Assembly: GCA_004335835.1 (NCBI GenBank)
Contig: RWJK01001419.1
Coordinates: 1 to 64,000, forward strand
Source of the DNA: Scenedesmus sp. ARA3
Taxonomy: Eukaryota > Chlorophyta > Chlorophyceae > Sphaeropleales > Scenedesmaceae
Direction of reading: 5' to 3'
DNA length: 64,000 nt
This document shows, piece after piece, positions 4,459-35,035 of the stretch; position 1 is the first letter of the stretch, and the number at the start of each line of letters is the position of its first letter. The notes under the pieces were generated by a model. It searched no databases and was not told the DNA's origin. It saw only the letters and a program-made list of their open reading frames with translations. Position numbers and translations under genes: made by a program.

Positions 4459-5004
4459 GAACAGCAGCTGGCGCAGCTCAGCTGGGTGGGCCCGTGGCGG
4501 CACGCCGTTAGCGGCAGCAGGGCCCTGTGTCACCCACTGCTGACAGCACCGGAGGTGCTGCAGCAGGGAGCGCCCTTCAGCGCAGCTACAGACGTGTTTG
4601 GGCTGGGCTTGCTGATGCTGCAGCTGGCAGCATGTTGGGTGCCGGCTGAGCACGACATTGGCAGTGCAGAGCAGCTGAGCGACATCCAGCACAGCTTGCA
4701 GCTGCTGGACAAGATTGGGACGCTGCTGGCAGCACTGGAGCAGCAGCAGCAGCAGCAGTGGGGTGCCTGGCAGCAGCAGCTGCCTGAGGGCTACTGGCAG
4801 CTGATGAGCAGCTGCTGCAGCAGCAGTGCTGCTGACAGGCCCAGTGCAGCTGCTGCACTAGAGAGCCTGCGCTCCATGCATGTTGTGCAGTGTGCTGGCG
4901 GCAAAGCTGCTCTGGTGCAGCGAGCCCGCAACAGCACACTTGCAGCAGTGCAGCAGCCTCAGCAGCAGCAGCCCACGGCGAACGACACAGGTGCGGCTGC
5001 ATGA
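1..5004 (+). CDS. ARM-repeat/RING-H2 protein with two degenerate kinase domains (5' partial)
   Basis: The gene is cut by the left window edge. Exons are <2-2884, 2986-3057 and 3226-5004, all phase 0, joined by GT-AG introns. The order of parts is: (1) the C-lobe end of a TKL-like kinase domain (to about 280); (2) a long run of about 42-residue armadillo-type repeats with the recurring core 'AGGVAALVQLLG' (about 390-2160); (3) a C3H2C3 RING-H2 finger (about 2324-2453, beginning CSIC, with HQFHQQC and CPMC); (4) polyQ; (5) an SnRK2-like kinase N-lobe and hinge (LLLKLPR, VDYCHSQG) in which the HRD and DFG triplets are replaced; (6) a TKL-like C-lobe with 'TAPEVL' and 'TDVFGLGLL' but 'VVHGAVHAGVV' where HGDLH-x-x-N would be expected. 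RING fingers normally recruit E2 enzymes and ARM repeats bind partners, so an E3 ligase with pseudokinase scaffolds is inferred. It could also be two tandem copies read as one gene. The domain calls are firm; the exact gene limits are not. Confidence 0.7.
2464..2521 (+). repeat. CAG-rich polyQ tract after the RING finger
   Basis: A near-perfect CAG array interrupted by GGG codons encodes Q-runs directly C-terminal to the RING finger. A purer (CAG)n run lies at about 4419-4457 in the last exon of the same gene. Confidence 0.85.
4603..4890 (+). repeat. Direct repeat, kinase C-lobe module, copy 2
   Basis: This is the second copy of the segment at 1-290. After it the protein diverges. The linker that leads into the ARM array in copy 1 (IRNSTDAAVLEAV) is here ARNSTLAAVQQP, followed by a stop at 5002-5004. 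Copy 2 therefore ends without ARM repeats or RING. Confidence 0.85.
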
Positions 5005-8037: not shown

Positions 8038-11000
8038 GCAGGGCCTGGAGACGGGCCAGCGAGAACTAACCCGCGTGCGGCCGCAGGCCATGCTGGAGGC
8101 GAAGGACCTGCCGCCCAGCCACCTGTCGATGCTGCTGGAGCAGCGCGTGAGCCGCAAGCTGGAGGAGGACCGGCAGGCGCGCGCGCTGCAGCAGGTGCGG
8201 CTGCGCAAGGGCTGCAGCGCGGCTGCATTGCTGCGGGCAGTGAGTGGTTGGGAGTGCATCCGTGGTTGTGTGTGCGTTTACCGTGAATGCAGATGCTGCA
8301 TGCCACAGGGGATGCGTTGGTTGAGAAGGTGGTGCCCGCGTGTGGCTGCTGCTGCTGAACATTGCCTTGCACCGCTGCCGCTGCTGCCTCCCGGCTGCTG
8401 CTGCTGTGCCTGCAGGGCATTGCGCCCTGCGAGGTGCCCACAGCGGAGGGCCTCACCATCCGCGTGATCAACAACGTGATCAAGAAGTGCGAGGTCAAGC
8501 AGCGCTTCTACGAGGCCTTCCGCAGCGACGGCTACCCCGAGGCCTTTACCTACCGGCAGCGCGTGGTGGTGCTGTTCCAGAAAATTGACGGCGTGGACGT
8601 GGCGCTGTACTGCATGTGAGTTGAAGCGTGGTACTGCATGGTACTGTGCTGTAGTGCATGGCACTGTGGTGCACTGCCTGGTGGTGCGCAGTACGTGCAT
8701 GTGAGTAGGGCACACACAGATCTTGCTCTTCATCCATGTGCCCGACGCAGATTACCCTTATGGCTGCTGATTAGCAGCAGTAGCAAGCAGTCCTGGTCTT
8801 CACTTGTTCAGGCACACACACATCACTGATGATACTGCTGCAACTTCCATGGCGGCCTGCCCGTGCTCTCTATCAAACCACAACAGGTACCTGCAGGAGT
8901 ACGGCGCGGACTGCGCGCCGCCCAACCGCAACGTGGTGTACCATTCCTACATCGACAGCGTCAATTACCTCCGGCCCAAGGTGCTGAGCCACAACGGGGT
9001 CAGCCTGCGCACGTTCGTGTACCACCAGATCCTGCAGGGCTACCTGGAGTACGTGAAGCGCCTGGGCTTCGAGCAGATGTTCATCTGGGCTTGCCCGCTG
9101 CTTGCGGTGAGTTTGTTTTTGTAGTTCAGTGGGGCGCACGGGGCGGATGAAAAGATACTGTACAGAATGCCACCTGGTGGTGGAGCAGCTTGCCTTTCTG
9201 TAGGTGTGGGGAGGTGGCCTGCAGAACCAGGCTGTGGTGTTGCACTGACAGCTTGTACTGCCTTTGTGCATCAAGTGCGGCTTGTAGCATGTGGCTTGTG
9301 GAGTGCCGTGCATGCTGCAGCTGTGCCTGCTGTGCCAGCATGACATGTCGATCATTGTGCCAAATGATGATAAAGTCATGATGTTGTGCTACAGCCCAAT
9401 CTCTTTGTTGCCATTCATTTGATGAGGAGGACGATAGTTACATCTACAGAACGTAACGCTTTGCCTTGTAACCTGCTGCGCCGATGCCTGTGCAGGACGT
9501 TGATAGCATCCTGTACTGCCACCCCAGCAAGCAGAAGACACCGCACAACGACCGGCTGCGCGCCTGGTACCGCGACATGCTGCGCAAGGCGCGCGACGAG
9601 GACGGCAGCGTTGCGCACGTGTCCACGCTGTGGGACACCTTCTTTGAGGGTGGGCGCGAGCACAGGTGCGTTAGGGCTCAGGCATGAAGCGGGCTGCAGC
9701 TGTGCAATGTGGCTGTGATGCTGTGAGCCGACACCTGCTTGTTTTAAATGAGATGTGTTGCTGTCCTCATCATGGGCAGGCGCCACGTACAAGCTCAGAC
9801 TGCAAGTCAACCACCCCACCATACGCAGGCTGGACAGGTGCATTGTGACCACCATCGCTGCCTGTAGGCTGCCACACGTCGTGCTGGTCTGCTGCGCTGT
9901 GTGTTCTGCTTGCGCCACACCCCGCACGCCATACGCAGGCTGGACAGGTGCACAGTCACGGCTATCCCCTACCTGGAGGGCGACTACTGGCCCGGCGAGG
10001 CAGAGGACCTGCTCGCCGCCATCACGGCTGCGCAGCGCAGCGGCAACGCCCCCGGCGGCAGCACTGGGTCGGGCCAGAGCACTGATGAGGCGCTGCTGAG
10101 CCGGCTGGGCGAGATTCTGGGTGGCAACATGAAGGAGGACTTCATGGTGGTGCACCTGCAGGAGCCGTGCAGCTTCTGCAGGCGGCACGTGGCGGGCGGT
10201 GTGCTGCACAAGTGAGCCAGGGCTGCGGAGAGGTGGTCTGCGCGGGGCGGGGAAAGGTTGTAAGGCTGTTGTGGGGTGCGAGGGGTGTGCGTGGTGCTTG
10301 CAGCGACAAACCAGGCATGCAGCTGTGGTTGCGGTTGAGGGGGCAGCAAGGCATCGACTGCAGGAAGCGCAAACTCATCCGCAGCAGGGGGTTCTCAGCA
10401 GGGGCATCAGCAGCAGCAGACGCGAGACACCGCAGCCCTGCTCAACCTAATGCGGAGACACAACTGACGTATGGTACCTGGTGCCGCACCTGCAGGTACG
10501 TGCCCAGCGGGCCCGGCAGCGCCAGCCTGCTGGCCAATACCTCGCCCATTGAGCGCCGCTTCGAGGGCATCCGGCTGGAGAGCCCCGGTCCCAACCTGCC
10601 CGGCCGCCCGCTGCAGCACCTACAGATTTGCGGGGACTGTTACAGCGCAGAGGGCACGCGCGTGGCGGCTGGGCAGGAGGGCAGGCTGCCTGGCGGGCTG
10701 ACTCTGGCAGACCTGATGCAGACGGTGAGGGCTGTTTGCATTTCAGGGCAGCAGTGCTGGCACGGACGGTGGTGGCTGGCTGGCATTGTTTCCTGGGGCG
10801 TCTTGGGGTTGGCGGAGGTTACGGTGGTAGGATGGCGGAGCATTAAACAGGGGCTTGCTGCTGTGCAGGCACAGTGAGCAGCACCCCGAACCAACATTGC
10901 CAATCAGTGACCAATCAGTGATCGTAACAGGTTCCCAGCAACTCTTTACACCGCGTGTTATGGCGCACACATGTGCATGCCTGCACTTGCTGTCTGGCGT

Positions 11001-12414
11001 CTACACATGTATGCTGCGCATGCCCACGGCGCCTGCTGCCCCACCTGCTGCCCCAGAGGCTGCCGACCTCATCTGCTAACCCAGTCCCTAATGCTGCGCT
11101 TCCCCTCTGCTTCCCCTTTTGCTTCAAATCAAACATCGACCTGAACACAACAGCCGGTGGCGCCCATCCAGACGGTCACAGACACGGACCCCGACATAAG
11201 CTTCGAAATCTTTGAGACACGCCAGGCCTTCCTGTCGCTCTGCCAGGGCAACCACTACCAGTTCGACAGCCTGCGCCGCGCCAAGTACAGCAGCATGATG
11301 GTGCTCTACCACCTGCATAACCCCGAGGTGCCTGCATTCAGCTCCAACTGCAACTTCTGCCATGCGGAGATCAAGCCGGGCACAGGGCTGCGCTGCACGG
11401 TGTGCAGCGACTTCGACATGTGCATGAACTGCAAGGCAGCGGGCATGCAGCACGAGCACACCATGGTGGTGAGTGGTGGCCTGGCTGCATTCCGGCACAT
11501 CTGAAGTACAGTTTAAGGATGGCTCTGCACATGCTGTTTCTGCATATGAGGCAGAGGGCCAGTGATAGTGGTGCATGCCTGGCCTCGTGTGCGTCGCTGC
11601 TTCAACTGTCCTACTGTGCCATGCTTGTGCCCTCTGACGCAACCGCGTTGCTGCCGTTGTGGCATGGCGTGCGGCGCACACCACAGGCCACCACCAACTT
11701 CGCCAACCGCGATGAGATGCGCAGCCGGCTGACGGAGCAAGAGCACATTGAGCGCAACCAGCAGCTGCAGAAGACGCTCGCGCTGCTGGTGCACACGTGC
11801 CACTGCCATAACTCGCAGTGCGGCTCTATCAGCTGCCGCAAGATGCACGCATTCTCCCAGCACGCGGTGCAGTGCACCCAGAAATCCACCGGCGGGTGCG
11901 ACATTTGCAAGACAATGTGGGGCCTGCTCAACATGCACGCGAAGAGCTGCACCACCAGCGACTGCCCGGTGCCGCGCTGCAGGTGGGTTGCCGCGGGTTG
12001 ATCTTGGGAAGGTAGGGCTGCCTGTTGCAGGCTGATTTCTGTGTGTTTAATTGGTGCTGCTGCTGTTGTGAAGATGATGCGGATATGGCAGAAGCCAGCC
12101 ATCTGTGTGCGCCTTTCAGTGGCAGCAGTGTGCCTTGTTGCAGCTGTTCTCACCTGATTGGCAGCTTGCCAGGATTCTATGCAAAGCTGGAGTGTTGCCC
12201 TTGCAGTGCAAACAGTCAATGTTTCTTGCTGAGTACTGCTTGTCACAACTCAGGAAAAGCTCATGCGTGCGCTGCTGGTATGCCTGTCTGTGGCTTGTGC
12301 TGCTGCTGCAGGGGGTTGAATGAGCTGCGGCAGCAGCAGACTGCGCACATAGAGCAGAAACGCTGCGCAGCGTACGCCAACATGATGCGCAATGCAGCAG
12401 CCGGTGGCAAGTAG
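5374..12414 (+). CDS. HAC1: CBP/p300-type histone acetyltransferase (plant HAC family)
   Basis: This nuclear lysine acetyltransferase and transcription co-activator is predicted at about 1130 aa. The 14 exons are 5374-5509, 5801-6057, 6365-6910, 7162-7482, 7675-7848, 8042-8194, 8416-8615, 8887-9106, 9496-9665, 9939-10211, 10496-10724, 11154-11468, 11687-11982 and 12312-12414, and all phases agree. Domains in order are TAZ1 zinc finger (aa ~60-130), a Gln/Met-rich linker, a Cys-rich/PHD region (~335-478), the KAT11 catalytic domain (~530-890), a ZZ finger (~945-995) and TAZ2 (~1015-1095). Catalytic-core motifs match p300: HSYIDSV (D~619), FIWACPL (W~663) and RLRAWYRDML (Y~694, equivalent to the p300 general-acid tyrosine). 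It is shorter than Arabidopsis HAC1, mostly at the N terminus, so upstream exons may be missed. Family assignment is very secure; the gene symbol is by homology class only. Confidence 0.93.
7110..7161 (+). repeat. (CCGCTG/CTG)n array forming the 3' end of a HAC intron
   Basis: A GCCGCTG array grades into pure CTG triplets and ends exactly in the acceptor CTGCAG before the exon at 7162. A second pure array at about 7998-8036 similarly ends in the acceptor TGTGCAG before the exon at 8042. Confidence 0.85.
9812..9975 (+). repeat. Exon-edge duplication, HAC exon 10
   Basis: The segment around 9821-9842 (CATACGCAGGCTGGACAGG, continuing TGCA) recurs at 9931-9952, about 110 nt downstream. The downstream copy is the real acceptor (CAG before 9939) and the first codons of exon 10. 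The upstream copy lies inside the intron and keeps an intact AG acceptor. Confidence 0.9.
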
Positions 12415-12559
12415 TAGGGCGCGCGAGATTGTGTGTGCGTCGTCCTGTGTGGCATGCTGACGATGGCCCAGCTTGGCATGCATGAGTGGGCTGCGGGAAG
12501 TTCTCAGCTTTTGAGCGTAAGCACGCTAGCAACAATGCCGGGCGTGTTGCTGCTGGCGC

Positions 12560-13300
12560 TGTTCCCGTACACAGCAGGCCAGGCAGCGCTGTGCAATGCT
12601 GGCGGCGTGGCTGCTCTGGTGCAGCTGCTGGGTTGCAGCGCAGATCCTGCAGTGCAGCAAGATGCAGCTGCAGTCCTGTGCAATGTGGCATGAATTACGC
12701 AGCAGGGCAGGCAGCGCTGTGCAATGCTGGCGGCGTGGCTGCCCTGCTGCAGCTGCTGGGTAGCAGCACAGACACAGCAATGCAGTGAGTAGCAGTTTGG
12801 GCGCTGCGCAACTGCGCTGAGGGTGACGCTGCATGCAAGGCAGCTGTGTGTGATGCTGGCGGGGTGGAGGCCCTGGTGCGTAGCCTGCAGGAGTGCGGCG
12901 CTTCCTGGTCACAGCTAGAAGCGCTGCGAGGCCTGAGCACTGTTTGCAGTGGCAGCCCCGCTGGCAGCAAGAGAGTATATGCTGCATGCGGCAAAGCAGT
13001 GTTGAGGCAGTTGTTGAAGAGTGACAATGATAGTGTACAGCTTGAGGCGGCGCGTGCTCTTCAGCTGATGGCCTCCAGTTCTGATATCAGATATCATCGA
13101 TGATGACGGTGCAGGCCTTTCTTGCAGTACTGTCCAGCGCAAGGTGGCGTCGCAGGGTGTGCTGGCAGGCCTGCCTTGCTCGCGCAGGCCTGACTCGTTG
13201 CGCAATGATTGCTGCAACATATGCCATGAAGAGTACAAGGGCGACGCCAAGGTTGCCACCCTGTTTAGCAGCCACCAGTTGTCTGCACAATACACCACGC
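12560..13300 (+). pseudogene. Decayed ARM-RING gene fragment
   Basis: Three armadillo-type repeats (AGQAALCNAGGVAALVQLLG and relatives) are followed by the same C-terminal ARM unit seen in the first gene (SVQLEAARALQLM), and then by a RING remnant (CNICHEEYKGDAK). The frame is broken. There is a single-base loss near 12689 giving a TGA, a CGA-to-TGA nonsense change at 12785-12787, and another frame change before the RING part. In the RING remnant the third cysteine position reads F and the distal cysteines are absent. It is clearly related to the gene at 1-5004, as either a third copy or the lost tail of copy 2. No kinase part is seen here. Confidence 0.88.
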
Positions 13301-13829
13301 ATGCGTGTTTGTTCCTGTTGGCCTTCGATTATCAATCGTGTCGAGCCACTGGCCGCGTCCATGCCAGTGTGCTGCCTGCTGCAGCCTCAGCAGCGCACTG
13401 TTTTTTTTGCGTGCATTCCCCTTGTCTTGCTTGGCTGCTGATTTGGCCACCTTCTTGGCACTGCCAGAGCTGCGGCAGCTCTGCCCGCTGGCATGTTGGC
13501 GGCTGCAGTGTAGCATGCAGCCTGGACGACAGTAGCACAGGCCTGGGACTGCACAAGCAAGACAGTAGGCTCACAGGAAGACAGTGGTGTACCATCTTGA
13601 TTTTGACGTGGAGCACTGCTGCTAGTGACTGTGGGTGCGTCCCCGCTGCTTCAGAGGTACCAGCAAAGTCAAACGGTTTTTTGCAGCAAAGGAGAGACTG
13701 CTCAGCATCTCCTGCAAAGCTCGGCACAGCAGGCATGCCTGCACGCAATGCCGTACTAGTAGCTGCCAGCCTGCACAACTGGCAGAACGCAAGGCTGCCA
13801 ACTTCTGGCTGCTCATTCAAAAGAGGCAA

Positions 13830-13874
<45 letters not shown>

Positions 13875-14959
13875 CACTCAACAACTTGTTGAACCTCGTC
13901 TAGCACTGTGTGGCCCCTGCTGCAGTCTGGAACCAGGTGCGTTGTATGCTATGTGAGTGCGCATTATGTTGCATTGTGCTTGTGCTTGTAATGAATGAAA
14001 TCGGCAACTTTCTTTATATTGTATATGTATGCGTGCTGGCCTGCTGAATACGTCGTCTGCGCGCTCCAGCACTGCTGGATCACATTATGTGATTCAGGTG
14101 TTGGCCAAACGGTGAAGAAAAAGCAGCAGCAGCAGCAGCAGCAGTGGAGATTTGAACAGGCTATTGGGATTTCAGGCGGCTTCTTGCGTGGTGGACAGCT
14201 CAGCTGCTGCAGCCTAGTGAGTGCTTGGCACAACGTAAGATCAGCTCTGCTGCAGTTGCATTACTGCACCTGGCGACCACCGGTGACACTGGCGAAATCG
14301 TTGCACAAGAAGCACAACCCCTCCCGCTTGCACCAATCAAACAAATGGTATGTGTACACGCTGATCAGTCGCACGAACTGACTGTGTGTGGTTGTGATAA
14401 ACTGCGCGCCAGCGTAATGAACGCTGCAGGTGGATGATCATACTGCATATATGGGCACATTGGCAGCAGCAATAATAGCAGATCACTCAAAAATGAGTGT
14501 TGTACTACTGAGCTCCTTCAATGTACACGCGTGGCAGAAGAAAGGCTCGCGACACTATTAGCACCTGATCCGGGCGGGCGTCACTCTTGTTGCACCTCCC
14601 TCTCTCATACACGAGCAGGTCACGTACAAGACTCGGTTTGGAAGTTGCCATTGTTGTGGCTGCGTATCAGCTGCAGCTCCCACTCAAAGGACGACTACAG
14701 AGTGCTAAATCCTTTGGCAGGCACCGCGACTCGTGATAGTTGAAGCGGGTATGAATGATCATCTTAAGCGCGTGCGGAGTCTGCTGTCACTTTGTTCTGC
14801 TTTGCAATGCTCTAGTGGTCGTGCCTGTTATGCAGCTGGGCTGTTCACTACGCACTGCACGTTGATTGCTGACCCGCAGCTCAATAATGCGAAACGAATG
14901 AAACAAAATTATCACGCACAGTGTATGTTTACGCCGTTATTTCGCAGCTCGACCTCTCC
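13301..14959. other. Gene-poor spacer with CAG arrays
   Basis: No exon chain could be supported. The visible features are a (CAG)n run at about 13830-13871, a shorter one at about 14124-14145, and AT-richer sequence between about 13980 and 14500. It is the likely promoter and 5' UTR region for the downstream secreted protein gene. Confidence 0.5.
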
Positions 14960-17037
14960 ATGGACGCCATGTGCCAGCACCTGCAGCTGTCTGCTGCGTT
15001 GCTGCTGGTGCTACTGTCACCTGTGCTGGTCCAAGCTGGCACCTTCAGCCCAACAATCACCAAGGCAGCCGCAAACGATATCCCAAGCAGGGGTGTCACT
15101 CTGCAGGACTCCGCAAGAGCTGCATCAGGTCAAAACTTCACCTGCAGCCGTGATGATGACTACTTGAACAAGCCAAAGTAAGTGCTGTGTGCAGCTGATT
15201 AGCACGTACGCCTTCTGATGTTGCAGCACGCCATCATCTCTGACTTCAGCACAGCTTGCACAGCTGCCAGAACAAGTACTGCCATGCATGGCGGCAACCC
15301 GCGTCTGCCCCAACCTCACCCCTGTCACGCGCTGCACACTCCACAGCTGCAAAACACTTGCCCCTGTACATGTTGTGCCTGCAATCCTGGCTGCTGCAGC
15401 CGCGGCTACGCAGATGATAAGAAATTGTCTGCACCGCAACACTCCCAGCACGTTGCTAAAGCTACGCTCCTGATTGTCTGCTGCCGCTGCTGCACATGTT
15501 CTCTCAACTGCTGCAGCCGCGGCTACACAGACTACGAGAACTTTGTCGGCCGCTGGAGCGAGGGCCAGGGCTGGTATGTGGCTGCGCTGCAAGCTGACAA
15601 AGAGAAGATTGCCAAGGCAGCAGACCCCAGCAAGGTTATGATGTGCCTGGTAGGCGGAGGCTGCGCAAACAACGGCGCAGACGAGCCCACAGGTGCGCGC
15701 CTTGTGCTGGCGCTGGTGTCGGTGTTGGCACTGCTTGTCTGCTGCTGCTGCTGCTCCTGCTCCTGCTGCTGCTGCTGCTGCTACTGCTGGTGCTGGTGCT
15801 TGTCCTGCCACGTGCAGTCAGCAACAGCTGCATTTGCTATGTCCTGACAGGTTTGCTCGACACCGGTGCCTGTACGATGTGCCTGTATATGCGAAGCTGT
15901 CAGACAGTGCTTCCCTGCATGAAGCATTGTGCCTCCACCAAATATATTGCAGTTTGTGAGAGGTGGGCTGTTGTGGCTGGGCTGGGTGGTGTGACAGCAT
16001 GCTGCTGCAGTTACGACACAATGGGCCCTGCTATGTTGTGCCAGTTATTGGTCGCTGTGGCAGGCGGCGCTGTGTTACTGGGCTGCGCTGTGGATCATGC
16101 CTTGAGTCGTCATCTACATAATGTTAAGAATATAGACTATGAATTGCTGTTGTAGAATAGTCTACATTATCAACATTGAATGAAAACCAACTCAAGGCAT
16201 GATTCAAGCATGAGCTGTGCACCATGCTGTGGGTGACGCTGCGACGCACAACCTATCCTTGCAGGCATGACTGGCTGCGAGCCTGGGCCGCGCCCTGGCA
16301 ACCCCAAACAGAACACCACGTGCAAGAGGTCCTGGCGGAAGATGCTGGGTTTTGCGGCCAATGCAGTCTGCAGCATGGCAGCAATGATGGCTGCACCGCG
16401 CAACGGCGGTACTGGCCCAGACGCCAAGGGCCTGGTTGGTATCTGGCCAGGCGCCCAGCTGCACATGTGAGTCAACGCCGTGATATATATCCATAATTAT
16501 CCATGATTAATTATCATATATGGGATTCAGCATGCGTGCGTGTGAACATGCTGGAGTGAATGAGTGAGTGAGTGAGTGAGTGAGTGAGTGAGTGAGTGAG
16601 TGAGTGAGTGAGTGAGTGACTACCCAGGCAGCTCTGCAGCTCCTGGGTAAGTTAAGGCTTGAGAGGGTGTGTGTGGTACTGCATGTAGGTTGCTGAAGAG
16701 CATGCTGCCCATGCCTGCAGCCATGCCAAGCCCGTGCAACCCCGCAGTGCAGCAACCGGCATGAATGCTTGGAGCACACCGTGTGGCACACCTAGATCTG
16801 CTGCGCTCACCTTCGTGCAAGTGCAGAAGCTTTCACGCCAGGGCACTATACACTCATGCCAGACAAACCATGCCATCACTTTGGCAGGATGCCTGCCGCA
16901 GCAGCCAGCAATACCAGGGGAGCTCCGCTCACTGCAATAACCTGCCGCCGCGCTGTTGCTGTTGTGCCTCTGCTGCTGCGCGGCTGTGCTAATCTTTTGC
17001 TGCAGTGTGTGCGCCTTCCAGGATGACATCACAATGA

Positions 17038-17093
<56 letters not shown>

Positions 17094-20000
17094 AGTGTCA
17101 ATGCCTTCCAGGATGACATCACGGTTCCATGGACCAGCGAGTTCCTGCAAGTGGGCTACACGGAGTGCCTGGCTGAGTTTAGGGCACGGAGGGCTGCCGG
17201 CAGGCCTGACCTGAAGCTGCTGCTGTTCACACAGGCGAGTACTGATCAATCTGTAAAAGTAGCCTAGGCCAGCTGTGCATTGTGAGTCCTGCTTAGCTGC
17301 TGCAGCGCAATTGTGCGAGGTACACGCGTGTAGCCTGCTGCAGCAGCTTGGACATGCATGCCTCGCTGGGGCTGGACAAGCTCACAGCATTGTCGGTGCA
17401 GCAGCAAGCCCTGGCTACTCCTGCATGGGGCGGGTGCGTATGCTCGAGTGCATGCAGACACTTGCATTCTGCCTTTGATCAAGGCTAAGCTGCCATGGCA
17501 TGCTTCTCATCACAGACCTTTGGAGTCAAAGCAGGGTGCTGAGTGCAAAACAGGGATTGTGTTCAGTGGTGACAGCTCGCATACTGTCTGTCCACACACA
17601 AAGCATCCGTTGTTAGTTGTGGCTCATGCGGGCTTAGCTAGTGCGCCAGAAAGTTGACTGGCGCGACAAACGCGTCCCAGATGGTGCCAAGGCTGATATC
17701 AAACCACGTCACCTTGCAAACGCCGTGGCTGCTGCCCACACTCGCAGGGCGTCATGGACGTTGCAGCAGACGAGCCCAAGGCAAAGGCGATGATCGACAG
17801 CATGCTGGCAGAGTTTCCAAATGATGTACTGCTCTTCTCACAGCTCTACGCAGACCAGAGCCCAGGCATAGACACATACACAGACAAGGTGCGGCCTTGT
17901 CCCGTACTATAGAAGGGGTGCTGACACGAGCACCTGCTGCTGGTTCCAGATTTGGTGCTTGCTCGAGCCGATGTGTGTCTTGCTGCGTATGTGACCATGG
18001 TGGCAGCAACGCTGCGGCCCTGCACCCATCTCGGCAGTTCTGTGCTGATCATGGCGCCATGGAAGGTGTTTTGTTGCAGTTCAGGTAGGCCTTGGCCATT
18101 AGTTGACGAGCGCGCATTGTTGCCGAATCGATTCAAAATCCTGACTCTGTCAACTGCATCTGCTGCACCTGCTGCAGAACTTCCCAAGCACGGAGCCAGC
18201 CTACATTGCTGTGGGTGGCGTAGATGAACGCGGCAGCAGGACCCCGCCACCATACGTGGGGCCTGAGTATATGTCTGGGTTCGGCCCAGCACTCGACTTT
18301 GTTGGGCCCGCATGGATGGTCCTCACCTATCCTACTGGTGACGAGACTACCGGCGGCTTTTACGACGAGGGATACATCTCAACAGACCCAGACATCAATC
18401 CAGTAGACTACCCCAACATGATCCGCCTGCCGATCCTGCGGTACAGCCGAACCAACATGTCCAGGGTGGGTACTGCTGCATGCAGCAGAGGAGGTGCTAC
18501 AAGTGCAGCAATCGTCACTGGGTGTCGTGCACCTCAGTTACTGTACCCAGCACTTGACCTGCCGCATTGAAGTAGCACCTTTTACAAGAGTGCATGCCAG
18601 CGCTGCAGTTGCAGACAACAACACAGGAGCCTCACAGGCAACAGCATCTCCCAGCTGTGCCTCTTGCAGAGCCCGCAACCTTGCTGCCGAGCGCCTGGGT
18701 GTCGGCCGCTGTTGCGCATATGCCTAAACATCACCCACGGCTGCTGAATACATGTAAAGCTGTATGCTGCCCCTCTAATCACCCTTGTATTAACAATCAT
18801 TGCCACAACTGTGTGTTTGTTGCTGGTGCTGCTATGCTGCTGCTGCTGCTGCTGCCGCCTTGCAGGGGCCAGTGACTGGCGGCATAGTGGACTGCGGGGA
18901 TGGGACAAAGTCGTGCGCTGGTGAGCTGCGCTGTTTAATGCAGTAGCACAATGCTTGGTCACATGAAAGGTCACACCCACATGCGGGGAATTGCGGTGCT
19001 GAAACACAGGTCCAACAGCAACATGCATCAACAATGGGTGAAATTCCATGTGTCTGTTGCACACTGTCGGGGAGTGGAACGAGACGCTGCAGCATGCCTG
19101 CCACTGCCATGCTGGCAGCAAGCTGCAAATCACTACTTCACGCATTCTGTGATGCTGCTGCCGCATCCAGGTGCAGAGATGATGATGAGTTTGATGATGA
19201 TGACTCATTAACGAGCTATGGGGCCTATGCCTGCAACCACCACTGCGCTGCATTCAGGTGCTAAGGGCAAGATCTGCTTGGTGGACTGGTTCGTCGGCAT
19301 CATGAGCTCACCAGACAACAGCTCGTACGGCAAGCTGGGTCACATCGCCACAAACTGTGTGGCTGGCGGTGGCGTGGGTGAGCTGCTTGTGCCTGAACAC
19401 AGCTTCATTGTTAGCAGTCACCAAAGTAGGGCCACGGGCCCACCCAGAAAGGAGCCAGAGAAGGCTCATGGGGTCTGTATTGTACTGCAACAGTGTGCGT
19501 GCGTGACTTTGGGTGTGGCTGCCCGCGCGCCATGCGTGACATGATGACTGCTGCGGCCCAGCCAGCCGCTGCGACAACAGAGTGAGGCTCGTGATGTGGT
19601 TAATCACCGCACTAGGGACAAGGAGCTTTACCCAAGAGTCGTGTGCTAGAGACTGCATGGCTTTGGCCAGCGCAGCTGCCTGCAGCGCTGCTGTGCTCTT
19701 GCATGCGGGCTACTGACATACATATATGGCTTTCTTGTTGGTGGTTTAACTGGAGGAAGGGAGCATCACATGTGGGTCCTGGCACCGTCGTAGAGTGTAT
19801 GAGCCACAACAAAGTGAGAAACTCATGGTCAGTTGCTGCAATGTCGCGGGTTTACTGTGAACCGCAGGTGTCATCATGGGCAACAATGCTGAGACAGATA
19901 CTGCAGGCTTTTGCAACTCATACAACGTAAGCGGCTGTCAGCTGCCAGGAGCAGTTGTTTGCCCTTGTGACTGTCCATTGTTGTGCGGTTACTGCCATGC

Positions 20001-24036: not shown

Positions 24037-27000
24037 TCACAGCCCCATCCTGCAGATGGGGTTGCTCTTGACCATGCTCAAGCTGACCTTGTGCCCAAAC
24101 AGGTCCCTGATGTTGTCAATGCCGTACAGGATCATGGTGGGCCGCTCCAAGCTGAGCCCCCAGGCAATGACATTCACATCTGGGGGCAGGCCCATGGGCT
24201 GCAGCATCTCAGGCCGGAACATGCCGCTGTTGCCCACCTCCATCCACTTGCCCAGCTCGCTGGAGTAGCTGCATGGTGGAAGGGATAAGACAGATGACGA
24301 GTACAGCAGCAGCAGCAGTGGTTCTTCAGAGGCGAGGCAATGATGAGTGTGATGCAAGGCATGGCGGAAGAAGAGCACTGCGGCTCAACTGCAACAGATG
24401 CTGGAACAGCAGACATAATCTTGAGTGGCGTGCCACTGCAGCTGCACGCCAAAGCGCATCACGGCCCAACACTGCCGCTGCAGCACAGGGCCAGCATGCA
24501 CACGCTTGGCTGAGCTGTTGATACAACTGATCGGCTCAATCAGCTGGGCCTTGCACAGCCTGGTGGCAAAAAAAGAAAAAAGAAACATAAACACAAACAA
24601 ACAAAAACACAAACAAACAAACAAGCAAACAAGCACGGCAGTGCCCCTCACCCGAAGATCTCCATGCTGGGCTCCGTGTAGGGGTTGAAGGCCGGCTTGA
24701 AGCGCAGCTCCTTCATGCCCAGCCGGCTGAAGAACTCCTGCAGGGGGCAGGGCGGGACACACATATACACACAGTGGGACACACAGACGCCAGGCACAGC
24801 TGGTTTGGCGAGAAGCACTTGGCCTGGTGTGCGGGAGCGCGGCCATGCCACTGCTTTCCCCATATGCATGCATATTGACGCTAACAAGCTTTTGTAGCCG
24901 ACACGCTGGCACAAGCAATCCCTGCAGCTGGCATGAAGCCAGCAAGGCGCAACCTTTGTCACTGCAACTCGATCAACACAGTTCCTGATGTGTCCCACCT
25001 GCAGCGTGGCGATGAGGTGTCCCAGGGTGAGCCCCCTGTCACAGACCAGGCCCTCCACCTGGTGGAACTCAGCCAGGTGGGTGCGGTCCACCGCCTCGTT
25101 GCGGAACACGCGGTCAATGCTGAAGTACTTGGCGGGCCTGGTGCGGTGGGTGGTGTGCAGTGTAGTGGCATCGCAGCGCAGCAGCGAGGGTGCAGCACAG
25201 GTGAGGATTGGGCTGTGGCACTGACCCTGAGACAGATTGATGCTCATGCTTGCAGCGTCATATGCACAGGGCAGCAGTCTGTGGCCGAGGCCAGGGTTTG
25301 CAGGTTGCAGCAGGTTGCTGCGAGTGTGGTGATTGGGTGCTTCCACTGCTACAATCGATGCGCATCGAGACAATCACAACAGAACATGTGTTCACCGACT
25401 CCCCTCCTGCAAATCGTGTTGCAGCGCTCACTTGAAGCCCTCCTGAGCCAGCTTGTACAGCATGCGGCTGCTGACTGCGGTGGTGTGTGTGCGCAGCAGG
25501 TTCTTCTGCGCCTCGGACCGCTTCCAGCAGTAGCCGTAGCCAGCGGAGCCGTGGCCGCCGTGCTCGTGCACCGCCTGCAAGGAAAACATCATTATAGGTC
25601 CATGATGAGGCCAGGAAGCGTGGATGCGTTGCTGCAAACTGTGCAAAGGGCAGCTTCATAACTTTCACGACAAGCCTTGCAGCACGCACGAGAAAAGGTT
25701 GCAGCCAGCGCGACATACAGGAGTGCCGAAGACATGAGAAAGCAGCAGCAGCGCCGCACCTTGACGCGCGCCAGGTAGTCCTCGGGGAAGGTGTCGCTGG
25801 CTGCTGGCTGAACGCAGGCGGCAAATTCAAACGAAAGAGCGCACTAAAGCCTAACACAAAACCAAAGCCTTCACACACCTTGACGCGTGCCAGGTAGTCC
25901 TCGGGGAAGGTGTCGCTGGCTGCTGGGCTGGTGAGGAAGAAGGTGTCGTGCGCATCACGCGCGGGGTGCTGCTGCGGCTGGAACAGGGAGTCAAAGTTCC
26001 AGAAGCTTGACTCCACGTAGTTGTTGGTGGGCATCTCCTGGAAGCCCATGGCCACAAAGATCTTGCGGTACTGGCTGCGCACCTGCAGCGCAAAACATGC
26101 GTGGTTTGTGTGGAGTCAACATGCTTGCGGTAACACTGCATGCGTACCTGCACTGCATGAGGTTTGCTGTGCATGCAGTGTTGCTTGCAGGAGCATGGTT
26201 TGTTTCAGTGAGCTTTGTTGCGGTGCTGGCTGCGCACCTGCAGGTGCGTAGCGCGTCTGCATGCGCGTGCGCATGTGTTTCATTGCTTGCCGGTGTCTTA
26301 CACACGCAGCAGCATTCACGGTGAATGCAGGCAAACCCAAACACACTTCAGGTGACTTCAGACATACTGTGTTGTAGTTAGGCTGGCGCCCCGCTGCGTG
26401 TGAGCACGTAGGAACAGAATTGCAGACAAGCCACAGGCACAGCCGCAGGCTCACCTTCATGAGCGGGTGCAGGTGCCCCCCGCTGGGCGGTAGGCCCATT
26501 GAGTTGAAGTTGAAAGGCTTGAACTCCTCACTGCGCCAGGAGCCACTGCGGACACGCAACAGCAGCAACAATAACGTGTTGTGAATGCATGGTACTTAGG
26601 CAAGTAGACTGTGTACGTCTAAGTGCCTGCATGTCCAGCAAGCCAGCAAGCACCAGCACGTCTGCTGGCAGCTTTTTCCAAGCGCTGGCCAAGCAGTCAT
26701 TACAACAGCATCGGCACCTTCATTTGCAACTGCGTTTGACCGGCAGACTTGCCACACACAGCTGCCGCTGCTGCTGCTGCTTGTAGATGCGGTGTTGCTG
26801 CTGGTTCTGCCGCACCTGGCGATCATCTCGCTGGTCAGCTCTGTGGCCTGCTTCTTGCGCTGCGTGGCAAACTTGGCACCCTTGGACACGCGGTACGTCT
26901 TCCAGGTGCTGCAGGGAAGCAGCGGCGGCAGCAAGAAGGCACAGGTTGTGTCAGAATTGCTAGCAGCACCTACGCCAGTTGACCGTGTGTTGAGCTGGCA

Positions 27001-28686: not shown

Positions 28687-29080
28687 ATCACTGCCAATTG
28701 TCTGAAAGGTTGTTTTATGTAGCTAATACGCTAATAGTTTGCAGCAGGTAGCGATCAAGCAGCAGTGGACAGCTATCAGATAGAAAATCGCGTGGTGACC
28801 TTGTGCCGTAGCGTTCCCTGCAATCAGTGGCTCGAAAGAGTAACTGGGCATACATGGAAGATGAAGATCAGAGTCTCCGTATGATCATTGGTGGGCGCGT
28901 CACTTGCAAAACCTCAGCAGTACGGCCCCTAGGAGGAAGAGCTCAGCCAAGCCGCAGCAAGCACGTTGTGTTTACGTATCGACCATACGGACGTGTGCTT
29001 GCAGTCCAAGTGGTTCACTCTCTGCTGCGCTCTACTACTGCTGCGTCCTGTACAGTTGAGGCAACATAGCATGCTTTGAC
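28687..29080. promoter_or_regulatory. Shared intergenic region of divergent PheRS and OEP80-like genes
   Basis: The two start codons face away from each other across 394 bp, which must hold both promoters and 5' UTRs. No clear TATA box or other element could be assigned by eye. Confidence 0.5.
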
Positions 29081-32000
29081 ATGGATCAACTGCTAAAGTC
29101 CCTAAACGACTTGCACCAGGCAGCAAGCAGCGTATGTCTGCACTTGCAGCAGCTACCTGCTAGCCTGACACAAGTTGGAAGGAGCAACAACCCCAGCAGC
29201 GCTAGCCCATATGCGCTGATTAGTACTCGCAGCTGCAGTCACAGCAGAGCCTACAGCCAGGGAAGCGGCAGGCGCATCCACTTTGCACCTCCGTTTGCTG
29301 CAATCAACAATGCTTTTACTGCCCAAGGTAGCGGCGCAGGGGGCCAGGCAGCTGGCAAAGGTGGCAGATCAAACGGCAAGGGCAGCAGCAGCAAGCAGGA
29401 GGAGGAAGATGAGGAGCGTATACTGATCAGCGAGGTATGCAGTAGAATGTTGCTGCTGTACAAAACGGCTTGTTGCTGAGAGTTCTACTGCTGTGCGAGA
29501 GCATCAAGCCATACTTCTGAGGGCACGTAGCTGCTGCAGTTGATGTTGAAAGCAGCGCGAGCATTCATGCGTGCATGCATGCAGCTGGGACATGCACCAA
29601 AGCACTTGCCCTGCAGCCTGGGGCCGCCAAGCTGTGCAGACCGGCCAGGCATTTGGCATCTTGTGCCTTTTGTTATAATGTGCTGTGACAAGCTTGCCGC
29701 CAGCAAACAACTTTGTTTCGCATCCTGTTCCTCCAGTAATGCTTGCACCATCCTGCTCACACACACAGTGCTATGCAGCACACATCGGCACACTTCAAAA
29801 CACAGCAGCAGCACCACCTGCAGGGCGGGAGCCACTGCAATCACGGCTTCACCTATCCCACATCCACTCGATCTCTCTTGCTGCACCCTGCCCCTCCCCC
29901 CCCTCCCAGGTTGAGGTGGTGGGGGTGTCAGAAGATCTTAAGCGCATCGCATATGACGCGCTGACCACGCGGCCCAACTTTGCCTACACGCTCAAGGAGG
30001 TGCAGGCAGACCTGAAGCGCGTGTTTGCCACCGGGTGGTTCAGCAGCTGCGTGCCAGACGCAGAAGATACTCGCGATGGCGTGAAGCTGGTCATCAAGGT
30101 GCGCGAAAGAGCTGCGGGGCATGCTGGCGCGCATTGCCTTGCATTCTTCACTGCTTGCTTTGCCGCTTCTCCCTGCCGCCTCACCCCGCTGCCCCTCCCC
30201 CACGTGGCCGCCGGCCCAAGCTGCTCAGTCTGGCGGGCATTGCGGTGCTGTCGTTGCGCGCTCACTGCGTCCCTTGCTCCCTCGTGCTAGTTACTCGCCC
30301 TGCTGCCAGGCGGGTGTTGGTAGTACTGCGCTGCTGCACTGTCTCGCTGCCTCTCCTGCCCCACACTTGCTGCTCATACTCATTGCTGCAGGTGGCCGCC
30401 AACCCTGAGCTGCGGGTGTGGTTGCATGCACTGCTAACCAGCCCTCTCCCTGCTCACAGCATACCTTGTTCTTTTTCTGATCTGCTCTTTGCTTGCTCTT
30501 TGCTCTATGTGCATTGCTGCAGGTGGCCGCCAACCCTGAGCTGCGGGGTGTGGTGGCGCGCGGCGCGGACGCACTGCCCACGGCGGTGCTGCAGAAGGCG
30601 ATGCGGCCGCTGTACGGCGGCCCGCTCAACTTTGTGGCCTTCAGCAGGGCCGTGGAGCGGCTGGACGGCTGGTACAGGGAGCGCGGCATACTGGGCCAGG
30701 TGCGGCGCTGAGGTGGTATATGTGTCGTGCAGCGCCTTTTGAGGGAAAAGCAGCTGAGCATGGTGTGGAGCAACGCAGAGCAGTTGGCACATGTGCTGCA
30801 CTGAGCAGTTGGGCACAGATTGGTGTGTTGAGCAGCTAGGCGCTATGCCCCAAAGACTGCTCGCTCGCGTTCTTCCTTGCTTGTTTGATTGATTGCGTGT
30901 GTGCGTGGGAGAGTGCATGCTTGCTTGCTTGCTTGCTTGCTTGCTTCTGTGCTTGCTTGGCTGCTTGGCTGCTTGCTACGCTTGCTGTGCATGCTGCTGC
31001 AGGTGATTGACTTCAATTTCGAGGGAGGCATCGTGGACCTGACTGTGGGCGAGGCTGCAGTTGGCAGCATTGAGCTGGCCTTCCTGGACCCCGCCACCAA
31101 CAGGTGGGGCTGGCAAGTGCGCTGTGTGGTGGTGCCGTGTTGTGGCAGCTGTCTCTGTGCATAAGCTAGGTGCTGCCGGCAAGCAAACGCCTGCGTATTG
31201 TGCAAGTGCATGTGGACTTCCTGGACCCTGCCACCAACAGGTGGGAGTACTGTGCCGTATCGAAATGCTGCATTGCTGCTGCGGTGGCATCAGCCTGGCA
31301 GAGTCTGACAGAGCTTGGCAAAGTTTGGCAGAGCATGGAAGAGTTGTGTGCTGCCTGCGAGCGTTATGCTTGCATCTTGCGCATGTAGTCCTAAGCTACT
31401 GTTTGGTGCACAGCATTGGTTGCGGCACCGTCTGGGACACCGTTTTGATTCCTTTCACACTCCTGCTTTTCACACTCACACTCTCCTTTTCGCTCCCTCC
31501 TTGCAGCCCCAAGGCGCAGGGCGCCACCAAGCCGGGTGTGATCCGGCGCCACCTCACCACGCAGCCGGGGCGCGTGTACAGCCTGCGCCAGGCCAAGGCC
31601 GACATCGACAGCGTGTACAGCACGGGGCTGTTTGAGGACGTGAACATCGTGCCGCAGGAGGCGGAGGACTCCACTGAAACACAACCCAAAGTGAGGCTGT
31701 GATGCACACGCTTGCTGCTGTTGCTGCTGCCGTGTTTCAAGTGTTTTGTTACCTTATGGACTGCACTGAAACACAGCCCAAGGTGATCATACTTCCGGCA
31801 TATGTGGCTGCAGTGGTGTAGGGGTTGCACACGCGTACCTATGTACTGGCAGATGGATCAATAATAGTTTATGGTGGACTGCACACAGACGCAGCTCACC
31901 CACATGCTCTGCCCTCCCTCGCTGCAGGTGGACCTGACGGTCAACCTTGTGGAGCGCAAGACTGGCGGGCTGGGCGCGGGCACGGGCATCAGCGCTGCGG

Positions 32001-34898
32001 GGCGCGGCAGCGGCAACATGCCGGGCTTTGTCGGCAACTTCACATACAGGTGGGGCTGCGGCTGCGCTGGCTGGCTTGTCAGAGTCATACCTGGTCTATT
32101 TGTGGCATGTTTGCCATGTTCAGAGTTCTGGCTTTGCAAGCGTACTCCTGGTATGTTGCGCTCCAGCTTTGCAAACAAGTGTGGGGCACGTCTGGACATC
32201 GGCCAGTCGCCGTCATAACACACTGTCGACCCAGCAGCGCACTCAAGCAAGATAAGCGTACTCGCCTGTTGCAGCTGCTGCTGGTATTGTCCAAACCTGC
32301 ACACACACACACACTGTGCACGCTTGCTCAGTTCATCCCGCTGCTGCTGCTGCTGTCGCCGTTGCTGCCGCTGCTGCTGCCGCTGCTGCTGCTGCTGCAG
32401 CCAGCGCAACCTGCTGGGGCTGAACCAGAAGCTGTCTGCGCTGGTGGAGCTGGGCCAGGCTGACAGCCTGTTCAGGCTGCAGTGGGTGGACCCATGGATC
32501 CGTGGCGACCCCAACAGGACAAGCATGACCCTCAGCATGATGAACACGCGGTGAGGCGGCTGAGGGAGGTGGAGCAGGGAAATGCTTGTCTTGCTGCTGC
32601 TGTGGTTGCTGGAATAGGGTGTGTCTGTGCTTTATTAATTGTGCTCATTTGTTGTGCGGCCGGGTGTGCTGCATGACACCTCCCACCGCATGCACCAACG
32701 ATTTGCGCCACCAGCGTCTGCACCCTGCTGCTCATGTGTGTGACACCCTGCGCTTGCATGTGACACCCCTGCTCATGTATGTGACACCCTGCTGCTCATG
32801 TGTGTGACGCCTGCTGCAGCATGTCTGCTACCGGCATCCACGGCAAGGCCCTGGAGCCGGCTGCATCAGCTGCTCATGTGTGTGACGCCTGCTGCAGCAC
32901 GTCTGTGACACCCTGCTCACGTCTGTGACATCCTGCTGTGTGTCTGCAACGCCCGCTGCAGCACGTCCGCTGCCGCCATCCACGGCAAAGCTTTGGAGCC
33001 GGATGCATCGCCAGCAGATGCTGCTGCTGGTGCTGCCGGTGGCGTGACGCTGGGCCGCCTGGTGGCTGGCACTGAGTGGAGGCGGCCCCTGGCAGCAAAC
33101 TGGAGCGGCATCGCAGGTGCATGTGGTGTAGTGTGCTCTCATGGCAGTTTTGCCTGCTGTAATGTGCTGAAAGGTCCCACGCTGTTGTGCTGAAGCTGCT
33201 GTTTGGTACATAGTCGAGCGTACTGCGGCAGCAGCGCTTGCAAGCCTTGTCATGTGTCCGGCATTTACCAGCTGCAGTGCACGACAGCCGGTACGTGGGA
33301 TCCAAACAGCAAGCTCATGCAGGTGCACAACAGCATCAGCATCTTCTCACACAAATGCAGCCCACTCCTGTTGTTTCAACTATGCACATGTCTCAAATCT
33401 GGCTCGCAGGCCTGACCTGGCAGCGCAGCTGCTGCATGGACAGCCACGGCACGCCGCTGCTGAGTGATGCTTATGGCGCGCCGCTCACCTTCAGCGGACG
33501 GCCCAGTGACAGCATGATGCTGGGCGTCATCAGCGGCTCCTACAGGTGCGGGATTACTGCGCATTTCTTTTTCAGTCGCTCAAGTATGGACTGCATGTGC
33601 CTGTGCATGATGCTGGGCGGTCCGCAGCTCCTACATGTGCAGGATAACCGTGTTGGCAGATGGACGTCTGTGCTTGTCCGAGGTTGGAATGCAAATGCAT
33701 GTGTGAGATGGCAGCAGTTCCAGTTTCAAGTTCAGCTGCGCGGCTGCCTCTCTTGCAAACACCCCAAGCATTGCGCCGCTGCTTCTCCGCGCCACCTGAC
33801 TCATGCGTCACCACATCCCACTTACGCCGCAATCCCTACTGCAGCGCCAATGACGGCAGCTCTATGGGCATCTCCCTAGAGCAAGCGCTGCCGCTGCACC
33901 CCGCCTGGCTCAACTTCAACCGCCTGCGGCTGCGGCTGGAGCAGCCAGTCACGCTGGGCCCGCTCACCCTGCAGCTGCGGGGCAAGGCAGGCAGCGTGTA
34001 TGGGGACTTGCCACCATACGAGGCTTTCCCGCTGGGTGGCACGAATAGTGTGCGTGGCTATGCGGAGGGAGGTGTGGGCTCGGGGCGGCACTTTGTGGAG
34101 GGCACGGCAGAGCTGCGGTGAGGCTGGTTGGCAGAGGTAGATGCAGTTCTTTTGCGCCAAAGACAATACTGCACCTGCATCTAACACCTGCCGCTGCATC
34201 TTTTGCATCGCATGCTACAAACCAACAACAGGTTGCTGCTGGCCAAGCCAATGCATGATTGCTGCCGACACCTCTTTGTAAGGCGTCTTCCCTGCTGCTG
34301 CTCGTTTGATGTCTGTTTTAGGTGGCTGCTGGCCAAGCCGGTGCATGGCACGCTGTTTGCCGACTATGGCAGCGACCTGGACTCGGGCGAAAGTGTGATC
34401 GGGGACCCCGCAGGCACGCGCGGCAAGCCAGGCAGGCAAGTGGTGAAGGCGTGCTGCGTAGTGCTGCACGGGCAGGGCAGGGCGGGGATTGCTGGTGGGG
34501 AGAGCGTGATGGGGGACCACGCGGGCACGCCAAGTCAGGCAGGCAACCAGCGCCTTATTTTGGATGCGTAGTGCTACATAGGTCAGGGCGGGGATTAGTG
34601 GCAGCACTGGTGGCATGGTACTGCGCATCTTGTGCGGTTGTGCTGCATGCGCGGCATGCTGCAGCGTGTTGCAGGTGTAGGAGCCTCTCAATGTTTGGCT
34701 GACTCGACCACTATCCGACAACACCGCTGCTGTGCTGCTTGCGGTCTGTGCTGCTGCTGCTGCTGCTGCTGCTGCTGCAGTGGCTACGGCTGTGGCGGCG
34801 GCATCCGCATTGACTCCCCGCTGGGCCCTGTTCGGCTGGAGTATGCTTGGAACGACCAGCGGCGGGGCCGCTTCCACGTGGCTCTTGGCTACGACTGA
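29081..34898 (+). CDS. OEP80: Omp85-family chloroplast outer envelope protein (OEP80/Toc75-V-like)
   Basis: This is a predicted beta-barrel assembly or import channel of the chloroplast outer envelope. Twelve in-phase exons (29081-29434, 29910-30098, 30523-30699, 31003-31103, 31507-31690, 31928-32049, 32401-32550, 32962-33116, 33410-33545, 33845-34117, 34322-34435, 34781-34898) give about 690 aa. After a Ser/Gly-rich N terminus come POTRA-type repeats (aa ~119-335; [38 protein letters not shown]) and the 16-strand-type barrel (aa ~340-690). The barrel has the Omp85 L6 loop signature [10 protein letters not shown] and the C-terminal beta-signal region [12 protein letters not shown] to FHVALGYD. 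The family is firm. OEP80 is favoured over Toc75-III from the C-terminal pattern and length, but a Toc75 or mitochondrial Sam50 assignment is not formally excluded. One intron (34436-34780) has a GC donor (AG before GCAAGT). Most introns contain diverged exon-edge copies. Confidence 0.85.
30380..30555 (+). repeat. Exon-edge duplication, OEP80-like exon 3
   Basis: ATTGCTGCAGGTGGCCGCCA at about 30382, continuing ACCCTGAGCTGCGG, recurs at about 30512 with a 1-nt length difference. The second copy is the acceptor and start of exon 3. The first, 130 nt upstream, has both an acceptor and a GT directly after its copied segment, so it could act as a 24-nt cryptic exon. Confidence 0.95.
30918..30947. 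repeat. (GCTT)n microsatellite
   Basis: About six tandem GCTT units lie in the OEP80-like intron 30700-31002, upstream of the exon at 31003. Confidence 0.9.
31081..31245 (+). repeat. Exon-edge duplication, OEP80-like exon 4 donor
   Basis: TTCCTGGACCCCGCCACCAA followed by CAGGTGGG at 31081-31108 (exon 4 end and donor) is repeated at 31218-31245 with one mismatch, 137 nt into the intron, again ending in AG-GTGGG. Confidence 0.95.
31666..31785 (+). repeat. Exon-edge duplication, OEP80-like exon 5 donor
   Basis: GGACTCCACTGAAACACAAC then CCAAAGTGA (31666-31694) is matched by GGACTGCACTGAAACACAGC then CCAAGGTGA (31758-31785), about 92 nt downstream in the intron. The donor dinucleotide is preserved. 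Confidence 0.9.
32338..32400 (+). repeat. CTG/CCG triplet array at a 3' splice site
   Basis: The array CTGCTGCTGCTGTCGCCG continues with CTG/CCG triplets and ends in CTGCAG, the acceptor of the OEP80-like exon at 32401. A second pure array at about 34749-34780 ends at the last exon (34781). Confidence 0.88.
32733..32961 (+). repeat. Minisatellite plus duplicated exon start, OEP80-like intron 7
   Basis: Roughly 20-25-nt units with the core TGCTCATGTGTGTGACACCC repeat and diverge through this intron segment. Embedded at 32820-32872 is a diverged copy of the start of exon 8 (32962-33014, sense GCATCCACGGCAA), 142 nt upstream and preceded by its own CTGCAG acceptor. Confidence 0.85.
33512..33643 (+). 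repeat. Exon-edge duplication, OEP80-like exon 9 donor
   Basis: The exon 9 end (CATGATGCTGGGCG, GCTCCTACAGGTGCGGG) at 33512-33549 has a diverged copy at 33604-33643, with CATGATGCTGGGCG conserved and GCTCCTACATGTGCAGG following. The copy lies 92 nt into the intron. Confidence 0.8.
34228..34348 (+). repeat. Exon-edge duplication, OEP80-like exon 11 acceptor
   Basis: CAGGTTGCTGCTGGCCAAGC followed by CAATGCATG (about 34229-34257) parallels TAGGTGGCTGCTGGCCAAGC followed by CGGTGCATG (about 34319-34347). The second copy is the real exon start and the first is intronic, 90 nt upstream with an AG acceptor. Confidence 0.92.
34389..34600 (+). repeat. Tandem duplication spanning the exon 11 donor, about 111 nt unit
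   Basis: The segment 34389-34490 (exon 11 end, GC donor and the first part of the intron) is repeated with divergence from 34500 to about 34600. Both copies share GTGATCGGGGACC/GTGATGGGGGACC, GGCAGGCAA, TGCGTAGTGCT and CAGGGCGGGGATT. This is the longest of the junction duplications and includes both exon and intron sequence. Confidence 0.85.
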
Positions 34899-35035
34899 AG
34901 CAGAGTTACAGCTTTCACGTTCTACAGCATCATGTGCTTGCCCCGTGCGGCTGGAGTGTGCATGGAGTATGTATGGAGTATGCATGGAATGACTAGCGGC
35001 GGGGCCGCTTCCATGTGGCTCTGGGCTATAATTTG
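34825..35035 (+). repeat. Partial second copy of the last OEP80-like exon
   Basis: The terminal coding segment at 34825-34900 (CGGCTGGAGTATGC, GCGGCGGGGCCGCTTCCA) recurs at about 34944-35035 with a small internal triplication of GGAGTATG-like units and an in-frame stop. It lies just after the stop codon, probably in the 3' UTR. Confidence 0.88.

Follow-up and report, generated by a model that had tools for sequence, protein, structure and literature searches.

The papers considered here describe few duplications of exon-intron junctions: one worked-out case in the RdRp gene of potato, where the duplication lies across an intron-exon boundary and the parental splice signals are used (PMC4974935), and, in Drosophila, tandem duplication within coding sequence at 5 of 31 novel intron positions (PMC2891723). 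Direct repeats of 4-30 bp (mean 11.4) have also been reported near intron splice sites beyond chance (Rogers and Bendich 2025; PMC11782384), and introners carry target-site duplications of 3-9 bp (PMC9860276). Here we analysed the first 64,000 bases (the window) of the 177,885-bp contig RWJK01001419.1 of Scenedesmus sp. ARA3, whose assembly comprises 87.27 Mb in 1567 contigs. In several genes of the window an exon edge has a noncoding second copy in the adjacent intron or flank, and we refer to such a copy as a ghost.

As in the potato gene, the duplicated segment crosses an intron-exon boundary, while in the Drosophila cases it contains a proto-splice site. In all of these the extra copy appears to be handled by splicing and AG|GT often lies within the repeat. 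Unlike in potato and Drosophila, up to eight pairs are found per gene, many loci are involved and the sizes peak near 125 nt; moreover, the exon half of the copy is fresh and the intron half nearly lost, and the gain of a new intron is here at most a possibility. The repeats of Rogers and Bendich likewise occur at splice borders beyond chance, but they compare the two ends of an intron, whereas those of the window are mostly 20-80 nt long, concern a single junction and lie 80-160 nt apart. Introners, too, are short intron-sized units in genes and have green algae among their hosts; in contrast to them, no repeated spacer family was found here and the flanking repeats are far longer. A resemblance to stwintrons (spliceosomal twin introns) may also exist, as a unit whose two copies each carry AG and GT might be removed first, restoring the older splice site; unlike in stwintrons, however, the repeats contain exon sequence, and they are seen here at the level of DNA only. 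Among the papers listed in our literature searches there was no report of ghost exon edges in Tetradesmus or Scenedesmus, which does not prove their absence. The scale, the size peak, the patchiness and the age gap between the two halves seem to be the novel features.

Self-comparison of the window, with each repeat pair then inspected base by base, revealed 13 pairs of short direct repeats between 9.8 and 35.1 kb (Table 1). The first-pass annotation, made from the sequence by eye, had reported duplicated exon edges in at least a dozen places, in several genes and on both strands. This held: its 12 offsets were right within 1 nt, and the pairs lie in HAC, subtilisin-like and OEP80-like genes on the plus strand and in a PheRS alpha gene on the minus strand, eight of them in the OEP80-like gene alone. 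On the exon models there are six acceptor ghosts, five donor ghosts and one copy of a stop-codon region, located in the 3' untranslated region (UTR) and containing an in-frame TAG. The HAC pair may be either an acceptor ghost or a repeat bounding a 110-nt intron. Self-alignment gave 17 alignments at offsets of 60-300 nt between 9.6 and 35.1 kb, a coding repeat array at 12.6 kb included, and none between 35.1 and 64 kb; each of 20 shuffles, in a comparison that kept the coding repeat arrays of the window in, gave none. In the three modelled genes, with the end at the stop codon counted as an edge, an exon edge was paired with a noncoding copy in 11 of 12 pairs, against about 0.15 per pair for random placement, which would leave both copies noncoding in about 0.45 of cases. 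The exception was the 17013/17103 pair, beside a CTG run.

The OEP80-like model (12 exons, 690 residues) agrees over its whole length with a Tetradesmus obliquus protein (98%), differing beyond residue 119 by one substitution and one 3-residue indel. The PheRS alpha model has 11 exons in a single open frame, and in the subtilisin/sedolisin-like model the first 11 exons are open and the final exon is unsolved. A simple gene finder predicted the PheRS ghost (25760-25807) as an exon, and ghosts can therefore corrupt gene annotation.

Table 1. Repeat pairs at exon edges in the window (positions count from its first base; offset is the distance between the copies, in nt)
Feature	Span	Strand	Offset	Remarks
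HAC gene, 24-nt repeat, 9819-9842 and 9929-9952	9819-9952	+	110	
Subtilisin/sedolisin-like, acceptor ghost (15391) of exon starting 15517	15391-15531	+	117	
Subtilisin/sedolisin-like, acceptor ghost (core 17013-17032) of exon starting 17096	16952-17122	+	89/90	beside CTG run
PheRS alpha, donor ghost 25757-25807 of exon ending 25879	25757-25926	-	119	51 nt at 98%
PheRS alpha, acceptor ghost 26218-26243 of exon starting 26082	26063-26243	-	155	
OEP80-like, acceptor ghost 30381-30425 of exon starting 30523	30381-30557	+	131	
OEP80-like, donor ghost 31213-31245 of exon ending 31103	31076-31245	+	137	
OEP80-like, donor ghost 31758-31786 of exon ending 31690	31666-31786	+	92	
OEP80-like, acceptor ghost of exon starting 32962	32727-33009	+	142	with nested short repeats
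OEP80-like, donor ghost 33605-33648 of exon ending 33545	33512-33648	+	93	
OEP80-like, acceptor ghost 34230-34257 of exon starting 34322	34230-34347	+	90	
OEP80-like, donor ghost (from 34497) of exon ending 34435	34386-34596	+	111	GC donor
OEP80-like, 3' UTR copy (34974-35041) of last 60 coding nt and stop region	34837-35041	+	137	

A wider sample of 20 stretches (L001-L020; 181 kb of the 87.27 Mb), picked by spaced contig numbers, comprised five that adjoin the window and 15 on other contigs; the coding repeat arrays of the window (1-2500 and 12.5-13 kb) were left out of the repeat, flank and offset counts. Exons were called by a predictor trained on two genes, which placed 10 of 12 and 9 of 11 exons exactly and, on an untrained gene, 5 of 12. 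In one sampled locus an exon was identical to a T. obliquus protein at 119 of 119 residues; together with the OEP80-like match, this suggests that the DNA belongs to T. obliquus or to a strain very near it. The duplications had been expected to concentrate at junctions and they did so: over sample and window, 74 of 120 repeat cores touched a predicted splice edge, against 33.8 ± 4.8 in shifted controls (maximum 52 in 1000 shifts), a count somewhat inflated by ghosts that the predictor calls exons. The repeats were common but patchy, with 9-20 non-redundant repeats at offsets of 60-300 nt in six stretches, 2-4 in four, one in three and none in seven; the variance of the counts was 9.6 times their mean. 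The narrow range of offsets noted at first sight was also found here, since 83 of 140 repeats lay at 80-160 nt, with a peak at 120-140 nt and a smaller bump at 200-260 nt; three lay below 80 nt and one below 60 nt. These counts show exon-edge duplication to be genuine and, within the sample, widespread, with a concentration at junctions and a narrow range of sizes. Cores away from predicted edges peaked at 100-140 nt as well (19 of 50), and the size thus looks like a trait of the copying process and not of splicing; judged by sequence, several of these repeats probably represent exons that the predictor missed, or pairs of two ghosts.

The matches lie mostly on the exon side. At the 78 of 412 sites with a match, some of them false ones in CAG repeats, the median match on the exon side was 36 nt for acceptors and 42 nt for donors, and on the intron side 5 and 6 nt, versus 5 and 3 nt between unrelated splice sites. 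Polypyrimidine content, which bears on whether ghost acceptors were once working ones, was 0.541 at ghost acceptors, 0.594 at all acceptors (p 0.09), 0.502 at random positions (p 0.10) and 0.471 at random GCAG sites (p 0.007). Validated introns with and without a ghost were of similar length (361 vs 358 nt; n 11 and 21, p 0.87), whereas a small set of predicted introns said the opposite (380 vs 226 nt; n 7 and 53, p 0.011).

The two halves of the ghosts differ in age. In a clean set of 55 ghosts, from which CAG-rich edges and four named rows were left out, codon positions 1, 2 and 3 were mismatched at rates of 0.057, 0.046 and 0.143, and the changed codons comprised 106 synonymous, 85 nonsynonymous and two stops (55% synonymous). 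A synonymous share of 25.5% is expected if the ghost alone changes freely, of 40.6% (calculated by hand) if the working exon also changes silently, and far more under full constraint. By this measure the ghosts as a set are not kept as coding sequence, because the observed share is too low for full constraint. A fully coding mode of evolution was rejected on the same grounds, the overall phase bias of mismatches (417 of 724 in the best phase versus 351 ± 8) including true protein repeats. More than 12 nt out from the junction, the intron flanks were weakly more alike than same-intron shifted controls (43/44 ghosts scored, p 1.6e-4), the freshest ghosts included (at least 94% identity; 15/16, p 0.007, and 0.03 in two other settings); a control with pairs from other genes gave the same outcome. 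The flank score was 0.6-1.3, against about 27 in 40 nt simulated at matching age (about 85% alignment). When 83 repeats were taken one by one, p ≤ 0.05 was reached by 13 left and 14 right flanks, about half of them in L013. The repeat at L019 5721 was left out of the comparison of flanks as a set and of the test on the exon-internal end described below. Judged by these alignments, the intron flanks appear to be homologous but of old date, and the exon half appears young.

Ghost copies that look fresher than the surrounding intron suggest an unusual local process of copying and rewriting. The account that we favour, with slightly less than even confidence, is that junction segments of about 125 nt were duplicated long ago, that splicing tolerates them, and that their exon half was afterwards overwritten with sequence from the working exon. 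In this view, stretches of about 80-160 nt straddling an exon-intron junction would be duplicated in place, and the duplicate would persist since the extra copy can be skipped by the spliceosome, leaving the protein unchanged. The intron half of the copy would then drift to near randomness, while the exon half would be rewritten from the working exon in short tracts of about 25-80 nt that end where homology ends, at the splice site; the likely route is template switching, or conversion, involving the two direct repeats, which lie close together. The end product would be a ghost that keeps the exon edge and a splice-site consensus, next to intron sequence that is almost unrelated. We infer both the order of events, duplication first and rewriting later, and the enzymology.

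A PheRS ghost was also encountered in a relative. The protein P0160 (jgi; two contigs, up to 25,224 nt) has the same PheRS exon as the window and reads on into its intron, where a copy of the exon end follows 81 residues on (identity at 22 of 25 residues). Since its exon is not the same as the T. obliquus one, P0160 comes from a relative, and this single case of a ghost in the relative's contigs implies that ghosts of this sort do not arise solely as an artefact of a single assembly. The P0160 ghost has SS and Q in common with its own exon and the window ghost AS and A with its own, a pattern that would fit rewriting or repeated birth in each species. In-frame internal repeats passed the filter in three of 279 retrieved proteins: P0160, P0166, a Schistosoma protein in which the cause of the repeat is uncertain, and P0234, a weak 11-residue row. 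No second algal hit with an in-frame ghost was found among the retrieved proteins (for PheRS, the best 120 of 1287 hits), and the 71 hits for the L019 gene contained no ghost-like repeat.

Several points weigh against old duplications with rewritten exon halves. The rewriting itself is deduced from the age gap, and tracts of 25-80 nt are short for conversion. The synonymous share lies above the expectation for ghosts that change freely next to a working exon, and some copies seem, from their codon changes, to have diverged under coding constraint or to have come from other alleles. Position-linked composition around splice sites could account for part of the trace of flank homology and, were this trace spurious, copying of the exon edge alone would look similar. 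Finally, the P0160 ghost lies 243 nt from its exon edge and the window counterpart 119 nt, so the former may have arisen independently.

The main rival, which we regard as rather unlikely, is a copying event confined to the exon edge. A piece of exon with some 5-14 nt of intron would be templated into the adjacent intron during break repair or by replication template switching, the flank never having been duplicated. Such an origin would agree with similarity that ends near the splice site even in fresh pairs (at L019 5104, 42 of 42 exon nt match and the intron match is 10 nt), with the lack of similarity past the exon-internal end of the match (p 0.30 and 0.35), and with the spacers between copies, 11 of 12 of which had no other match in the 87-Mb assembly, a result that is not proof of rarity; the remaining one held a fragment of a dispersed repeat, and an L015 query, part spacer and part exon, matched its own locus only. 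It leaves the residual flank homology unexplained, in the freshest class as well, and offers no evident reason for the template being an exon edge with its splice site. Moreover, 40 spacers had slightly fewer 8-10-mers in common with their surroundings than control stretches did, unlike patchwork repair, and filler from patchwork break repair was discarded on this ground. As a separate observation, the L018 spacer (L018 6164-6250) has 23 further partial matches across the assembly and overlaps by 25 nt a short dispersed repeat that occurs in the window at 13948-13984 and 35886-35922 (92% over 37 nt).

Plain tandem duplication of junction segments with neutral decay of both halves, the model of the first-pass annotation, is improbable for the ghosts at large, though dense loci resemble it. 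At L015 8469-8888 near-identical whole units stand in tandem (99.7% over 296 nt); in the L015 RabGAP/TBC gene (Pfam RabGAP-TBC) a 124-nt unit of exon start and intron end is present three times at 99.7%, a second edge of that gene four times, and an L020 donor edge five times, the last two counted by eye. Duplication thus appears active at some loci, as had been proposed, but not as a general statement. A long intron-side match in 13 of the 55 clean ghosts also speaks for the plain model, as does the richness of donor ghosts in AG|GT: 29 of 35 end in AG, with GT following in 27 of 35, whereas AG-ending donors number 145 of 260 predicted and 19 of 32 in modelled genes. The corresponding excess of GT at the start of acceptor-ghost exons (9 of 24, against 41 of 253 among predicted exons and 10 of 32 in the modelled genes) is not secure. 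However, 5% divergence of the exon part predicts about 85% flank alignment, of which the flanks as a set fall short, and in 118 of 140 repeats the core covers less than 0.8 of its offset. Duplication followed by simple decay misfits the tested ghosts because their exon part is far younger than their intron flanks, and for those with a short intron-side match the flank test contradicts it.

It is quite improbable that the pairs are assembly mosaics, in which haplotype A past the exon edge is joined to a divergent haplotype B before it. In its favour, PMC12636532, which cites Biondi et al. 2024, states that strains of T. obliquus can be diploid and extensively heterozygous; the repeats are distributed patchily, as would be expected of heterozygous tracts, and some pairs differ mainly at third codon positions. 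Nevertheless, nine of 18 changed codons are nonsynonymous in seven OEP80 and PheRS ghosts of the window, while OEP80 hardly varies between strains from residue 119 onwards; the 55% synonymous share of the clean set does not suit an allele under coding constraint; some edges occur in three to five copies (L015 and L020, by eye); the paired intron flanks lack the alignment to be expected of allelic introns (score about 1 vs about 27); and contigs of a relative hold a similar ghost. Mobile introners or filler DNA inserted with long target-site duplications are least credible of all. The exon-spacer-exon layout does resemble an insert between direct repeats and the HAC pair could exactly bound a 110-nt intron, but the flanking repeats measure 20-80 nt and more, far beyond those of described introners, and the 12 spacers examined, unmatched but for the one with a dispersed-repeat fragment, form no evident family of dispersed introners.

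Other repeats were recorded alongside the ghosts. At L019 5694-5814 about the last 91 nt of a DUF3007-family gene (PF11460), stop included, are tandemly duplicated, the second copy being 3' UTR. Repeat arrays at 1-2400, 4602-4949 and 12568-13280 of the window, which we take to be Armadillo-like, consist of diverged copies of a unit of about 129 nt, a length near the ghost offset peak; 1-348 matches 4602-4949 at 88.5%, and 1969-2391 matches 12842-13280 at 74%. Minus-strand self-comparison of the window showed near-palindromic stretches at 37890-37931 (86% over 42 nt) and 16091-16206 (69% over 124 columns). The sole N of the window, at 62247, lies inside a coding-looking run, and L001-L017 contain no N.

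It is worth bearing in mind that ghosts can mislead gene finders and short-read mapping. At the same time, a genome with many such duplications, of a sharply defined size and with an age gap between halves that can be measured, would allow the statistical study of their birth, their fate and their link to intron growth and gain, and a copying process of this kind could help to show how introns grow and arise. We consider it possible, though with appreciably less confidence than for the account favoured above, that in Scenedesmacean genomes a local process acting on about 125 nt duplicates junctions and keeps rewriting the exon halves of ghosts from the working exon. If so, introns would contain many exon edges that are renewed again and again, a form of concerted evolution on the scale of a few dozen bases, and this would feed intron growth and, possibly, intron gain.

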